Below, one piece after another: positions 12,361-18,087 of a DNA stretch of 64,000 bases. Made by a program: the position numbers and the translations under genes. Where the stretch lies: contig BJHF01000001.1 in assembly GCA_014191855.1 (NCBI GenBank), positions 186,001 through 250,000 of the forward strand, given 5' to 3'. The stretch's first letter is position 1, and every line of letters starts with the position of its first letter. Origin of the DNA: Deltaproteobacteria bacterium. GTDB lineage: Bacteria > Myxococcota_A > UBA796 > SXON01. The notes beneath the pieces are model-generated. The model ran no database searches. It was not told the origin of the DNA and saw nothing but the letters and a program-made list of their open reading frames with translations.

Positions 12361-12543
12361 GTGCGTCGGGTCCTGCTGGTGAGCGCGAGCGTCTTGGCGG
12401 TGGCCGTCGCCGGGTTTGTCGCGTGGCGCGCGGCTCGCGAGCCCGCACCGCCGCCGGTCGTTTCTCTGGATGAGCGCCCGTACGAACAGACGAGCGACAA
12501 GGAACGAGAGGACTGGATGCGGAAGCTGGGCTACGTCGACTGA
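12361..12543 (+). CDS. Small single-pass membrane peptide with LGYV tail
   Basis: 60 aa from GTG. Residues 4-21 form one hydrophobic helix after a basic start (MRR), then a proline-rich stretch, then a charged helix ending in RKLGYVD. The same type of ending (a charged helix, then [LM]GY[LV]) closes the anti-sigma-like protein and the small membrane protein at 37283-38688. The third codon positions are strongly GC. It lies 12 bases before the cysteine-repeat gene and probably shares its transcript. Function unknown. Confidence 0.6.
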   Translation: MRRVLLVSASVLAVAVAGFVAWRAAREPAPPPVVSLDERPYEQTSDKEREDWMRKLGYVD

Positions 12544-12555
12544 CCGTTCGGCACG

Positions 12556-13494
12556 ATGGGCTCCCTTCCGTTCTCCTTCCTCGTCGCCGCGTGCCTCGCC
12601 ATGCTGTTGGGCCTGAGGTTCGGCCTGGAGCGAGCGCTCCCGCAGCTCGGAGAAAGGGATGTGTCGGCCAGCGCTTCGGAGAGCGGTCCGGGGATGCAGG
12701 TGCCACCAAAGCCCGAGGGTCTCGGCGCGGCGCCGGGCGAAGGCAGCGGCGACGCCACGGCGTTGACCCCCGCCATGTGTGATGCGATGGCGAGCGAGCT
12801 GCGGGACACGTGTATGCAGGCGCTCTCCCGCCAGATCGCCCTGGCGGATCCAGACGAGGCGATTCGACAATGCGGTCGGATAATCGACGAGGATCTCGCG
12901 TTCGAGTGCCGGGCGGACGTAGCGGAGACCATCGCGATCGTCCACCGGAAGGAGGCCGAGGCGATCTGCGTGAGCATCGTGAGCGTAAAATGGCGCGGGC
13001 AATGCCACTTCGGCGTGGGCCTGGCGCTGGCGGAGACCGACCCGGAGTATGCCATCGCCCGCTGCGAGCATGCGGAGGCGTTTCGAACCTTTTGTCGTCA
13101 CGACGTAGTCGGGGAGATGTCGTTGGTAAACCTGCCGGCAGCCGTGGCGATTTGTGCCCGCGAGGAAGGCGACACGCTCACCCGAAAGACGTGCTGGCAC
13201 GGGATGGGGAAGTATATCGCTCGTCGCGACATTGCCGAGGCCGGCGCGTCGTGTCGGCAGGCCACCGCCGCGTGGCAAGGGCTGTGTTTCCACGGAGTCG
13301 GGTGGGGCGCGGCGGAGCGCGATGTGGGTGCGGCCTTGGTCGGCTGTGCGGCCTTCGGAGAGTACGCCGACAATTGCCGCCACGGCGTGGCCAACCAGTT
13401 GAAGCGCACGGATCCCGAGCGCGAACAGGCTATCTGCGAGTCGCTCCAGAACTCCGAGGCCAGGGCCAAGTGCCTGGCGTTCGTTACCCAGTAA
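12556..13494 (+). CDS. Membrane-anchored protein with eight cysteine-pair repeats
   Basis: 312 aa, family not recognised. One N-terminal membrane helix (about 5-23), a Pro/Gly/Ser linker to about 70, then a repeat array to the end. Sixteen cysteines lie at 75/86, 106/118, 138/150, 170/180, 200/213, 233/244, 264/274 and 294/306. Within a pair the spacing is 10-13; from the second Cys of each pair to the first of the next it is exactly 20 in all seven cases. A [HW]G[VM]-type motif often follows the second Cys (CHFGVG, CWHGMG, CFHGVG, CRHGVA). This suggests a disulfide-stapled helical-hairpin solenoid on the periplasmic side, comparable in principle to cysteine-rich Sel1-like repeats. Nine bases before the ExbB-like gene, so probably its partner. 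Confidence 0.8.
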   Translation: MGSLPFSFLVAACLAMLLGLRFGLERALPQLGERDVSASASESGPGMQVPPKPEGLGAAPGEGSGDATALTPAMCDAMASELRDTCMQALSRQIALADPDEAIRQCGRIIDEDLAFECRADVAETIAIVHRKEAEAICVSIVSVKWRGQCHFGVGLALAETDPEYAIARCEHAEAFRTFCRHDVVGEMSLVNLPAAVAICAREEGDTLTRKTCWHGMGKYIARRDIAEAGASCRQATAAWQGLCFHGVGWGAAERDVGAALVGCAAFGEYADNCRHGVANQLKRTDPEREQAICESLQNSEARAKCLAFVTQ

Positions 13495-13502
13495 GGTCCA
13501 CG

Positions 13503-14105
13503 ATGATTCGCTACCTGCTCGACGCCTTCTCCGGCCCCGCAGCCGTGTTCATGTACGCGCTCCTGGGGATCCTCGCGTTCGCGATCGCCGTGTTCGTGGA
13601 GCGCACCCTCACGCTGATCCGCTGCCGGGTCGATGCGGGTGGTGTCTTGGCGCGAGTCAAGCAGGGCCTCGACTCGGGTTCGCCGCCGGCTCTTGGCGAC
13701 ACGCCGTTGGAATCGGTGGTCGCCGCCGGCCTTGCCGAGGCGGATCCGGAGCTGGGGTGGGATGCGATGCAGGCGGCGGCGGTGGACGCTGAGCAGCGCG
13801 TTCGTCGGCGCATTCCCTATCTCGCGGCCGTGGCCTCGATCGCGACGATGGTGGGGTTGTTCGGCACAGTATATGGGCTCATTCAGGCGTTCGGTGCGCT
13901 GGGGGATGTCGCCGCGGCCGAGCGCGCGGCGCGGCTCTCGGAGGGGAGCAGCACGGCGATGGCGAGCACGGCGTTCGGCCTGTTCGTCGCGATCCCCGCT
14001 CTGGCCGCCCACTCGGCCCTGGATGGTCAGGCCCGCAGCTTGTTGGCCGCGATCGAGGCAACGGCCGGGCGCATCCACGTGCTGCGCCGCTCCCGGGCGC
14101 GCTGA
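13503..14105 (+). CDS. MotA/TolQ/ExbB-like proton channel subunit
   Basis: 200 aa. Three membrane helices in the family arrangement: about 12-33, 105-128 and 153-175, with a cytoplasmic loop between the first two. The signature region IATMVGLFGTVYGLIQAF and the third helix (STAMASTAFGLFVAIPALAAHSALD) match TolQ/ExbB. These proteins form the stator channel that converts proton flow into work together with a TolR/ExbD dimer. Here two ExbD-like genes follow. No TolA or TonB gene is nearby, so the driven partner may be the cysteine-repeat protein just upstream or an unlinked protein. Start chosen at the ATG right after the upstream stop. Confidence 0.88.
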   Translation: MIRYLLDAFSGPAAVFMYALLGILAFAIAVFVERTLTLIRCRVDAGGVLARVKQGLDSGSPPALGDTPLESVVAAGLAEADPELGWDAMQAAAVDAEQRVRRRIPYLAAVASIATMVGLFGTVYGLIQAFGALGDVAAAERAARLSEGSSTAMASTAFGLFVAIPALAAHSALDGQARSLLAAIEATAGRIHVLRRSRAR

Positions 14106-14111
14106 GCGGCG

Positions 14112-14606
14112 ATGCGCCTGTTTCGCGAGAGTCCGACGGAGGAAGCCGATGTTCGGCCTACCTTACTGGGCGTCGTCACGCTGTTGTTCCTCCTGCTCTT
14201 CTTCTTGATGTCCACCTCCTCGGGGCAACGCCTGGGCGTCGTGGATCTTCGGCTCGCAGCCCCGGGAGAAGCCCCGCCGTTGCCGCACAGCGGGCTCGTG
14301 AAGTCGGTGCGCATCGCCCTGGAGCCCGACCGTGTTGTCGTGGAGTTTGATGTCGCGACCACCGACGTCTCCGCAGCCGCGACGACAACGGAGCTGCGCC
14401 GCATCGAGGTGCCGGCCAGGAACGCGGAGCTGGATGTCGGCGCGCTCGTGGCGGCGATGGAGGTGGTGCACGCTATCGACATCGCCCAGTTGGAAGCTGA
14501 GGTTCACCCCGGGCCGGAGGTGACGACCGCGACGTTGCTTGCCGCCCTGGACGCGGTTCGGGGCACAGCGGCCGCTCCGCGCTTCCCGAAGGTGAGCCTC
14601 CGATGA
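14112..14606 (+). CDS. ExbD/TolR-like protein lacking the helix aspartate
   Basis: 164 aa. Short cytoplasmic start, one membrane helix (about 18-36: LLGVVTLLFLLLFFLMSTS) and a periplasmic domain, the layout of ExbD/TolR. In those proteins the helix carries a Pro-x-x-Asp whose Asp relays protons; here the corresponding stretch reads RPTLLGVV, so Gly stands where Asp is expected. The rest of the helix, with the F-L-M-S-T end, is conserved. Six bases after the ExbB-like gene; overlaps the next ExbD-like gene by four bases (ATGA). Probably forms an asymmetric pair with that subunit. Confidence 0.78.
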   Translation: MRLFRESPTEEADVRPTLLGVVTLLFLLLFFLMSTSSGQRLGVVDLRLAAPGEAPPLPHSGLVKSVRIALEPDRVVVEFDVATTDVSAAATTTELRRIEVPARNAELDVGALVAAMEVVHAIDIAQLEAEVHPGPEVTTATLLAALDAVRGTAAAPRFPKVSLR

Positions 14607-15058
14607 AGCGAAGGCGGCTGCTACGCCCGTCGGACGCCGGGGCGAGCCCGGGCCTCGACGTTGGCGCGCTCGCTCCGATGGTCGATATGATGACCTTGTT
14701 GCTGGTGTTTCTGCTGCGAACCTACTCGACCGAACTCGCCCCGGCTCCCCCGAGCGGCACCTTCGCGCTCGCGGCCACGAGCTCGGAGGACGCCCGGGCG
14801 GGCGGCATTGAAATCCTGGTGTCGAACGAGGCGATCTACGTGGATGGGCTGCGGATTGCGGCGTGGGAGTTCGTGGAGGGGGAGGGGGTGATCGATCCGC
14901 TCTACGAGCGCCTGCTTCAGGCCCGGCCGAAACGTCGCGCGGAGGTTCACGCCGACGCTTCTGTGCCTTGGAGGCGACTTTCGCGCGTGCTGGGCACCGC
15001 CCAGGCCGCGGGCGTGGAGCAGCTCGCGGTCGTGGGTGCGTATGGCGGCGCGATGTAG
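14603..15058 (+). CDS. ExbD/TolR-like protein with the helix aspartate
   Basis: 151 aa. A basic cytoplasmic start (MKRRRLLR), a membrane helix with the canonical APMVDMMTLLLVFLL (Asp28 in the Pro-x-x-Asp position) and a periplasmic domain of about 105 aa ending in a segment (VEQLAVVGAYGGAM) like the last strand/helix of ExbD. Overlaps the preceding ExbD-like gene by ATGA. Together the operon encodes one channel subunit and two non-identical ExbD-like subunits, the gene set also seen for the TolQ/TolR-type AglRQS motor of Myxococcus; similarity to that motor is inference only. Confidence 0.82.
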   Translation: MKRRRLLRPSDAGASPGLDVGALAPMVDMMTLLLVFLLRTYSTELAPAPPSGTFALAATSSEDARAGGIEILVSNEAIYVDGLRIAAWEFVEGEGVIDPLYERLLQARPKRRAEVHADASVPWRRLSRVLGTAQAAGVEQLAVVGAYGGAM

Positions 15059-16401: not shown

Positions 16402-18087
16402 TCAGTCCCCGCGCTCCATCTTCTTCACGGCCATCTGCACGTATTTGCGGATGTTCGGGATCTCCGGGTCCAGCGAATAGGCGCGCTGCAGATCCTGGAA
16501 GGCCTGGCGGTAGTTCTTCCGGTAGTAGTGGCTGATTCCGCGCCGGCACCGCGCCATGGCGTGGCTCCCGTCCAGCTCCACCGCTTGATCGTAGAACTCG
16601 ATGGCGCGCCGGTACTCCTTTCGAGCAAAGTACAGGTCACCCATCGCGACGTGCGCATCCGGACGATCCGGATGCAGATCTTCGGCTCGTTGGAAGTCGC
16701 TCATTGCCGAGCTGTAATCCCCGAGCTCGAGGTAGCAGCGCCCCCGCCCGATGTAGGCGTCGCTGCGATCGTGGCGCAGGTCGAGCACGTCGGTGAACGC
16801 CTGGATGGACTTGTGCAGATCGCCTTTGCCGGCGGCCACCACAGCGTCTTCCATGAGCTGGGCGATCCGGCCGTCGTCCCCCGCAGGCTGGATGTTGGGG
16901 GCGGCTGGGGCCTGGGTAACCGAGGGCGACTCGTCGTCTTCCGTGAGGCGAGGCCCCTCGCCAGGATCGGAGGTTCGCCGGGGCTTCAGCGCGCCCGCGA
17001 GTCGGATTCCGCCACCCGGGGCGGCGATGCCGGCACCGAGCAGCGCGTCCTCGTCTTCGTCGCTGGAGGTGGCAAGCTCGTCGTCGCCGGCTGCGGGCCC
17101 GGCCGGGCGAACGGCGGTCGGAACGACCGGACGGCTTGCGCCGATCGATACCGCAGCCGCCCCGGACTGCGCGCTGTCGTCGTCGGCCTCGTCTTCCTCG
17201 GGGGCAGGCGCGATCGCGGCCACGGCTCGCGGACCCGCGGGCGCAAACGCGTAGATTTCCGCTCCCGCCGGGGCGGCGGCCGCTTCCGCTTGCGCGGCGG
17301 CTTCCGCTTGCGCCTCGGCTTCCGCTTGCGCCTCGGCTTCCGCTTGCGCCTCGGCTTCCGCTTGCGCGGCGGCTTCCGCTTGCGCCTCGGCTTCCGCTTG
17401 CGCGGCGGCTTCCGCTTGCGCGGCGGCTTCGGCCTGCGCGGCCGCTTCCGCTTGCGCCGCCTCGTCAGCTTCGCCGGCCTCCAGCAGTTCTGGAGCCTCC
17501 TCCACGACCAGCTCGTCGAGGAGCTCGGTGGCAGGCTCCTCCACCACCGCGGGGATCTCGCTCACCGGCGTGGACTCGTTTGCGCTGACCTCGATCGGAG
17601 GTGCGGCCGGGGGCGGCGCCACCTCCACGACGGCTGGCGGTGCGGGAGCCACCTGCGCCGTCGTAACAGCCGGTTCTGGCGGCGGGGCCGGGGGCTGGCT
17701 GCGCCGCTCCGTGGACCGCGGCGGCGCGGCGGCCGCCGCTTCCCGCTGCCGCCCCACCAGCATGTTTCGCTGCAGGCGGCTGGCGATCGGGGCCGGGCGG
17801 GCCTCCTCTCCGGGGGAGGCGAGCAGGCTCGCGTCTTGCGGCGTGGCGTCGTCGTCCGTACGCTCCAGCGGGGGGCGGGCAAGGCGGCCACGAAGGACGT
17901 TGATACGCCGATCGAGGGTGTCGTGCAGCTCGCCGAGGCGCGTACGCTCGTCGCCGAGGGCGACGCTGACTTGCGTGAGCTGCTGGAAGTCGAGGTGCCG
18001 CGCCGCGAGTTGGAGGAGCGCGGACCGCCCCGCACCGAGGGTGCTGAGCAGCCGCTCCGCGGCCTCGAGCGTGCTGGGTTCGGCCAT
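16402..18087 (-). CDS. TPR protein with low-complexity AQAEA linker
   Basis: 561 aa, cytoplasmic by appearance (no signal or membrane helix). An N-terminal helical region (about 1-75), then a long Pro/Ala/Glu-rich disordered region containing ten AQAEA[AE] hexapeptides (about 209-268), then four to five TPR units near the C-terminus (about 430-555), for example SDAYIGRGRCYLELGDYSSA and PDAHVAMGDLYFARKEYRRA. TPRs suggest a scaffold for protein complexes. It is followed leftward by nothing, and preceded by a coiled-coil gene six bases away whose stop abuts its start, so the two are probably made together. Confidence 0.8.
   Translation of the reverse strand: MAEPSTLEAAERLLSTLGAGRSALLQLAARHLDFQQLTQVSVALGDERTRLGELHDTLDRRINVLRGRLARPPLERTDDDATPQDASLLASPGEEARPAPIASRLQRNMLVGRQREAAAAAPPRSTERRSQPPAPPPEPAVTTAQVAPAPPAVVEVAPPPAAPPIEVSANESTPVSEIPAVVEEPATELLDELVVEEAPELLEAGEADEAAQAEAAAQAEAAAQAEAAAQAEAEAQAEAAAQAEAEAQAEAEAQAEAEAQAEAAAQAEAAAAPAGAEIYAFAPAGPRAVAAIAPAPEEDEADDDSAQSGAAAVSIGASRPVVPTAVRPAGPAAGDDELATSSDEDEDALLGAGIAAPGGGIRLAGALKPRRTSDPGEGPRLTEDDESPSVTQAPAAPNIQPAGDDGRIAQLMEDAVVAAGKGDLHKSIQAFTDVLDLRHDRSDAYIGRGRCYLELGDYSSAMSDFQRAEDLHPDRPDAHVAMGDLYFARKEYRRAIEFYDQAVELDGSHAMARCRRGISHYYRKNYRQAFQDLQRAYSLDPEIPNIRKYVQMAVKKMERGD
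17281..17462 (-). repeat. 18-bp minisatellite inside the TPR gene
   Basis: About ten tandem 18-bp units encoding AQAEAA or AQAEAE. Units differ mainly at the codon pair giving Ala or Glu. The array keeps the reading frame, so copy-number change would lengthen or shorten the linker without frameshift. Confidence 0.85.

Follow-up and report, generated by a model that had tools for sequence, protein, structure and literature searches.

The locus studied here raises the question of what a proton-driven motor of the ExbB/ExbD type would act on when no TonB gene stands beside it. It lies in a stretch of 64,000 nucleotides from a Deltaproteobacteria bacterium (contig BJHF01000001.1, positions 186,001 to 250,000), referred to as the window. 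Five adjoining genes of the same direction, named S, C, B, D1 and D2, span window positions 12361-15058 (Table 1). B, D1 and D2 make up an ExbB/ExbD cassette, C codes for a cysteine-paired protein and S for a small membrane peptide. The absence of TonB from the locus, claimed in an earlier reading of the letters without database searches (the sequence-only reading), was confirmed among the 15 open reading frames (ORFs) of the window that were scanned. The account tentatively favoured here, with somewhat less than even confidence, is that S-C-B-D1-D2 constitutes a self-contained inner-membrane module in which C would be the motor effector, occupying the slot of TonB or TolA.

Conserved cysteine pattern and predicted fold of C

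The protein C has 17 cysteines, of which Cys13 lies in the membrane helix and 16 follow it (residues 75, 86, 106, 118, 138, 150, 170, 180, 200, 213, 233, 244, 264, 274, 294 and 306). The seven intervals between successive pairs reported in the sequence-only reading were all found to be exactly 20 residues, with a within-pair spacing of 10-13. The pattern was followed in alignment A2, consisting of the window C and 34 full-length relatives (35 rows, identity to the window protein 76-36%). All 16 cysteines are invariant in these 35 proteins and form complete pairs in each of them; each of the 245 between-pair intervals (245 of 245) measures exactly 20 residues, and the two cysteines of a pair are 10 to 17 residues apart. 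The cysteine regularity is not a matter of chance, since both the residues and the interval are kept throughout. Up to an E of 1, C gave no match in Pfam or NCBIfam; it also had no PDB sequence match, the sole PDB profile match being to a dehydrogenase (E 1.5).

Two other assignments of C were tried and rejected. As a lipoprotein, C would use Cys13, which stands in a lipobox-like VAAC; this cysteine is conserved in 20 of 36 rows and lies inside the membrane helix. For a phage origin, no match was obtained in phage records, and none of 18 pattern matches in viral contigs encodes a relative.

The AlphaFold2 model of C (35 sequences) predicts a confident helical solenoid, with a mean pLDDT (predicted local distance difference test) of 90.3. 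The membrane helix (residues 4-27) is followed by a low-confidence stretch at residues 39-62 and then by the alternating helices of the solenoid, where the pLDDT is mostly 95-98. Foldseek with this model returned generic TPR-like and other alpha-solenoids, the best at E 0.045 and none below 0.001, with TM-scores of at most 0.31 among the 50 matches listed; a chain of the Campylobacter flagellar motor periplasmic scaffold was at rank 13.

Two conserved elements of C bear on a possible role as effector. The pattern [MILV]-x-[VILM]-P-P-[KR]-P is present in 35 of 35 rows of A2 and occupies residues 47-53 of the window C. Within the solenoid, the conserved residues other than cysteine are H182, D183, E187, H215, K219, Y220, R223, H246, W250 and E254. 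The invariant ones stand at fixed offsets from the second cysteine of a pair, with His at +2, Gly/Asp at +3 and others at +6, +7 and +10, and the invariant His at +2 recurs in three consecutive repeats (182, 215 and 246). These fixed offsets suggest that the solenoid has one conserved binding face.

Cysteine pairing in shorter relatives

Leaving aside the main C and a single fragment of C, the profile search of the phylum gave 54 weak-match places, of which 29 were fetched, in 27 loci (L044-L050 and L121-L140). A profile search of these loci gave 30 reading frames; the motif W...C.[FV] placed the cysteines in 26 of them and the four frames lacking the motif were dropped. Three complete cysteine pairs were present in all 26. 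The within-pair spacing is 10-12 in the first pair, always 12 in the middle pair and 9-10 in the third, and the between-pair intervals vary from 14 to 24 and are not kept at 20. Because these relatives keep the short spacing and vary the long interval, the short pairs are the likelier disulfides of C. A staple across the long interval is also geometrically possible, because the midpoints of the 20-residue intervals fall at or within about 2 residues of helix turns in the model. The earlier proposal that the regular cysteines denote a stapled helical-repeat rod holds in part: a helical repeat is predicted by AlphaFold2, but the 20-residue interval is not what defines the staples. The three-pair family, whose cysteines correspond to pairs 2-4 of C, belongs to the same taxonomic order as C, and a loose text test found a lipobox-like pattern somewhere in 27 of its 30 frames.

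Association of C with the ExbB/ExbD cassette

When a sample of 377 phylum genomes was searched with a profile of C, a search in which the best first-look candidates only were scored and distant members could be missed, 40 genomes gave matches, all in the window's own order. The main C is present in 36 of them (35 full-length, one truncated by a contig end), and the other four have weak partial matches only. A search of the 71 genomes of the class gave matches in 37. The scan of named genomes covered 35 loci, all from metagenome-assembled genomes; the bin titles of L051, L064, L065 and L069 say Klebsiella pneumoniae or Bifidobacterium breve and look wrong.

Adjacency was testable in 35 genomes, the C of G004 being at a contig end. 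The cassette adjoins C in 27 of the 35, co-directionally in 17 (16 of the window's family f1, and G053) and convergently in 10; in G054 the adjacency rests on a D2 fragment at a contig end. D1 is present in 35 of the 36 genomes with C. The 71 class genomes comprise 35 with C and D1, one with C only, two with D1 only and 33 with neither. For the 20 genomes of families f2, f4, f5 and f6 the counts are 14, 0, 2 and 4 (Fisher p 0.003), and by genus they are 17, 0, 2 and 21, genomes being treated as independent in these tests, which ignore tree structure. The D1 profile over the 377 genomes gave 37 matches at E 3e-44 or better, the next being at 4e-14. Going by these profile searches, C and the D1 of the cassette are clade-specific parts.

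The motor link of C is real, and the tie of C to an ExbB/ExbD set made in the sequence-only reading is thereby upheld for the eight-pair proteins. The same reading had named, as a finding that would count against it, repeat proteins standing mostly without such neighbours. The eight-pair proteins are mostly beside the motor; the 27 loci of three-pair relatives, on the other hand, gave no match to B, D1 or D2 in their flanks (mostly about 1.5 kb, less at contig ends).

Motor subunits B, D1 and D2

The residue T156 of B is present in 26 of 26 rows and T122 in 25 of 26; both are taken as the TolQ pore threonines, from motifs and not from an alignment. In 23 of the 26 rows the hydrophobic stretch of membrane helix 1 has no Trp. 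The rows L082, L084 and L118 have Trp near the start of helix 1, and nine rows including these have Trp at position 36, after the helix. In the G032 cassette (L113), tblastn did not detect B.

D1 alone matched the ExbD family of Pfam (PF02472) weakly and below the cut-off (E 0.032). Among 26 D1 proteins, 18 match ExbD at E up to 0.1, the best at 1.5e-8, and the profiles of D1 and D2 align with an hhalign probability of 87% (E 4.5e-6). The AlphaFold2 model of D1 (mean pLDDT 79.6) consists of a membrane helix and a b-b-b-a-b-a-b domain. Its top Foldseek matches were mainly glucokinase/hexokinase and RuvC, none below E 0.001; the ExbD-D-box complex 8vgc was at rank 35 with a target TM-score of 0.64, which weakly supports an ExbD fold for D1.

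The two ExbD-like subunits are unequal in their proton site. The membrane Asp is absent from D1 in 37 of 37 loci, and the aligned place is occupied by Leu, Phe or Met. In 25 of 26 rows, residues 17-35 of D1 are free of Asp, Glu, Asn, Gln, Lys and His; the remaining row has His at 34. In D2 the membrane Asp28 is kept in 25 of 25 rows of alignment A4.

Other ExbB/ExbD sets in the phylum

Twenty further loci were sampled, not at random: 16 were among the best-scoring places of the D1 profile outside the group with C, and the other four were ExbB loci from the window genome. Ten of these carry B with a D1-like and a D2-like protein (eight families), seven a D1-like protein without recognised B or D2, two B and D2, and one none of them. 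The phylum thus has three-gene ExbB-ExbD1-ExbD2 sets in eight families or more. The printed segments of 18 D1-like proteins from 17 loci (L141-L156 and L159) have Asn at the place of the proton Asp in 15 (LLPVMNLMVVLIPFLL), Gly in two and Asp in one. The first ExbD of the ten three-gene loci has Asn in nine and Asp in one, and the Asp is kept in 12 of 12 D2-like proteins of the sample. The pair of unequal ExbD-like subunits named in the sequence-only reading is not special, as ten further sets from eight families have a D1-like and a D2-like protein, nine of them with the Asn.

Ten neighbour proteins of the other sets were scanned. Four gave matches to TSP3 repeats, one to TPR, one to H+-pyrophosphatase and one to TonB_C below the cut-off, and three gave nothing. 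The ExbB/ExbD motor looks modular because these neighbours differ. In one further set of the window genome (L160, C3:27500-32500), the gene directly upstream of ExbB codes for a TPR protein.

Proposed mechanism and alternatives

In the favoured reading, B (probably as a pentamer) and a D1-D2 pair would form a proton-driven motor of the 5:2 type, with D2 as the sole carrier of the proton-binding Asp in the pair. C would be anchored by its N-terminal membrane helix, followed by a flexible linker, and its MxVPPKP strand-plus-proline motif would dock onto the periplasmic dimer of ExbD in the manner of the TonB D-box. The available parts of two papers place the D-box of E. coli TonB at residues 45-51, just after the membrane helix, and describe it as an alternating hydrophobic, Pro-flanked strand on the ExbD periplasmic dimer (PMC12215075, PMC10907165). 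By its conserved face the stiff eight-pair solenoid would bind a partner, a peptide or glycan of the outer membrane or of the cell wall. Turned or pulled by the motor, the C rod would transduce its force. The periplasmic location of C is argued from the paired cysteines and the motor context, because the charges flanking its membrane helix are ambiguous.

Several observations weigh against this assignment. By eye, those flanking charges do not clearly set the topology of C. The SHLS motif, which mediates the contact of TonB/TolA with the motor according to the accessible text of PMC12215075, is present in the C membrane helix in 0 of 35 rows. The D-box match is loose because the strand is short (MxV) in the window clade, and this likeness of motifs could be chance. 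On its own, a solenoid of these dimensions would probably be too short to cross the periplasm. In eight of the 35 testable genomes (G029-G034, G005 and G028) C and the cassette are unlinked, one genome with C (79% complete) is without D1, and D1 occurs without full-length C in G056, where the cassette is at a contig end, and in G051, where it is not. As C is without SHLS and B is mostly without the helix-1 Trp, any contact of C with the motor inside the membrane must differ. The more ambitious claim that C represents a further class of proton-driven transducer, in which a disulfide-stapled rod, D-box-like docking and an ExbD axle with one proton site would be combined with S as gate or ligand, is rather unlikely.

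The alternative that C is a fixed periplasmic scaffold, or an anchor to the cell wall or a partner, which positions or gates the motor while D1/D2 or an unlinked protein passes on the force, is unlikely to a slightly greater degree. Helical scaffolds surround flagellar stators, and C has only generic TPR-like and alpha-solenoid matches, the Campylobacter chain among them; the lack of SHLS and the eight unlinked genomes also agree with such a role. The TonB-like layout of C, with its conserved Pro motif after the membrane helix, argues for an effector instead, and no other conserved effector candidate is present at the locus, the M16 protease gene having been found beside C in f1 only, while the search of the 35 named loci gave neither the ATP-grasp gene nor the TPR gene that lie downstream in the window. 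The unlinked genomes would equally be expected if C and the cassette were functionally unrelated neighbours by chance, and vertical inheritance within one order inflates their co-occurrence. Such a chance neighbourhood is very improbable, given that the adjacency is kept in two gene orientations, that D1 is kept elsewhere in the genome in seven of the eight unlinked cases, and that C and D1 are jointly absent from 4 of 20 genomes of families otherwise having both.

It is improbable that a canonical TonB or TolA from another locus is what the motor drives and that C is accessory to the uptake or envelope system concerned. The window genome does contain nine TonB_C matches over the cut-off and nine ExbB-family matches. 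However, another ExbB (C1:260893), ~62 kb from the cassette, already stands about 1-2 kb from TonB_C matches (C1:262275 and 262673), and ~62 kb is also the distance of the TonB_C match nearest to the cassette; the genome-wide search was for TonB_C and not for the TolA domain. The site for the His of TonB/TolA uses conserved Ser, Trp and Pro, as stated in the accessible text of PMC12215075, and the helix-1 Trp is missing from B in the 23 rows noted above, by a rough comparison with no TolQ aligned over the helix. About as improbable, or marginally more so, is a redox, metal or ligand sensor working by Cys/His chemistry, whose signal the proton channel would receive. The invariant His 182, 215 and 246 stand on the same helices as invariant Asp, Glu, Lys and Tyr, as a sensor might require, but the complete pairs of all 35 full-length proteins and the three pairs of all 26 shorter relatives fit structural disulfides.

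Comparison with known systems

The closest likeness to C as an effector is given by the vWA-effector motor, in which an inner-membrane-tethered periplasmic protein is likewise encoded next to a single TolQ-like gene and a pair of unequal TolR-like genes. Both effectors have a membrane helix, a linker and a C-terminal domain without TolA/TonB homology. Many vWA effectors carry SHLS with its His, whereas C is a cysteine-paired solenoid without it, and no vWA domain was found among the 15 window ORFs scanned. The system described here differs from the vWA-effector motor in its effector.

AglRQS, the gliding and spore-coat motor of Myxococcus xanthus, resembles the cassette in having one TolQ-like and two TolR-like subunits, as described in the available portions of PMC9389320, PMC3169522 and PMC3858216. 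Both AglQ and AglS are described there as carrying the Asp (PMC9389320), and they match PF02472 at 6.7e-18 and 3.1e-15. The difference lies in D1, which is without Asp and matches the family far more weakly, the Asp being compared by description. The TonB-ExbBD and TolA-TolQR systems share with the locus the motor subunits and an effector built of membrane helix, linker motif and distal domain; unlike their effectors, C has no SHLS, TonB_C or TolA domain, and its cassette has two different ExbD proteins. The cysteine-rich (Sel1-like) proteins of Helicobacter and Csep1P have an alpha/alpha solenoid with hairpins closed by a short-spaced Cys pair, the hairpin-internal cysteines of Csep1P being 9 apart, in the accessible part of PMC12904459. 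The predicted solenoid of C, with the short pairs as its likelier disulfides, would resemble them. C differs from them in having no Sel1 Pfam match, in pairs 10-17 apart and in being membrane-anchored beside a proton motor.

In the open-licence PMC literature, no C-like protein beside such a motor was found in the titles and abstract openings among the matches listed, and a limited search of the same kind gave no Asp-less ExbD partner. The available portion of a 2026 review of Ton/Tol motors gave nothing on a C-like system under the terms used (PMC12905483). If the favoured reading is true, it adds a cysteine-paired solenoid to the effector types of proton-driven periplasmic motors and suggests that within the phylum these motors serve as a module whose effector can be exchanged. 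The Asp loss in one ExbD (37 of 37 loci here, nine of ten other sets) raises the question whether a 5:2 motor needs two proton sites, which is testable because the loss is conserved.

Gene layout and flanking genes

Table 1. Coordinates of the five genes and of the parts of C in the window
Feature	Position	Strand	Description	Evidence
S	12361..12543	+	60-aa single-membrane-helix peptide, GTG start, C-terminus ...EDWMRKLGYVD	
C	12556..13494	+	312-aa membrane-anchored protein, eight cysteine pairs	
C residues 4-27	12565..12636	+	N-terminal membrane helix, without SHLS	AlphaFold2 helix
C residues 47-53	12694..12714	+	MQVPPKP, D-box-like motif after the membrane helix	Pattern in 35/35 rows
C residues 72-311	12769..13488	+	Predicted helical solenoid with 16 paired cysteines	AlphaFold2, helices H72-77 to H300-311
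B	13503..14105	+	ExbB/TolQ-like channel subunit, 200 aa	PF01618 E 2.8e-26
D1 (ExbD1)	14112..14606	+	164 aa, ExbD-like, without membrane Asp	ExbD profile link
D2 (ExbD2)	14603..15058	+	151 aa, ExbD-like, membrane Asp at residue 28	PF02472 E 1.3e-9

The small membrane peptide S, first noticed in the sequence-only reading, proved to be real and conserved. It matched no family over the cut-off in Pfam or NCBIfam. An S-type frame carrying the motif [LI]GY close to the C-terminus was seen by eye directly upstream of C, the only place where it was looked for, in 25 of 34 loci; these comprise 21 of 21 loci of f1 and 4 of 13 loci of other families. In L071, L072 and L078 a different short reading frame replaces S at this place.

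The genes flanking C vary between families. An M16 protease gene stands beside C in 20 of 21 f1 loci; it was rejected as a partner of C, since 0 of 14 other named loci have M16 beside C, in flanks of differing length. Upstream of C outside f1, a DUF547 gene is present in eight loci (L071, L072, L073, L075, L077, L078, L080 and L084), where it is divergent, and an unnamed gene in six. The TPR protein of the window (16402-18087, - strand) lies outside the module and contains a long low-complexity AQAEAEAQAEAA stretch.

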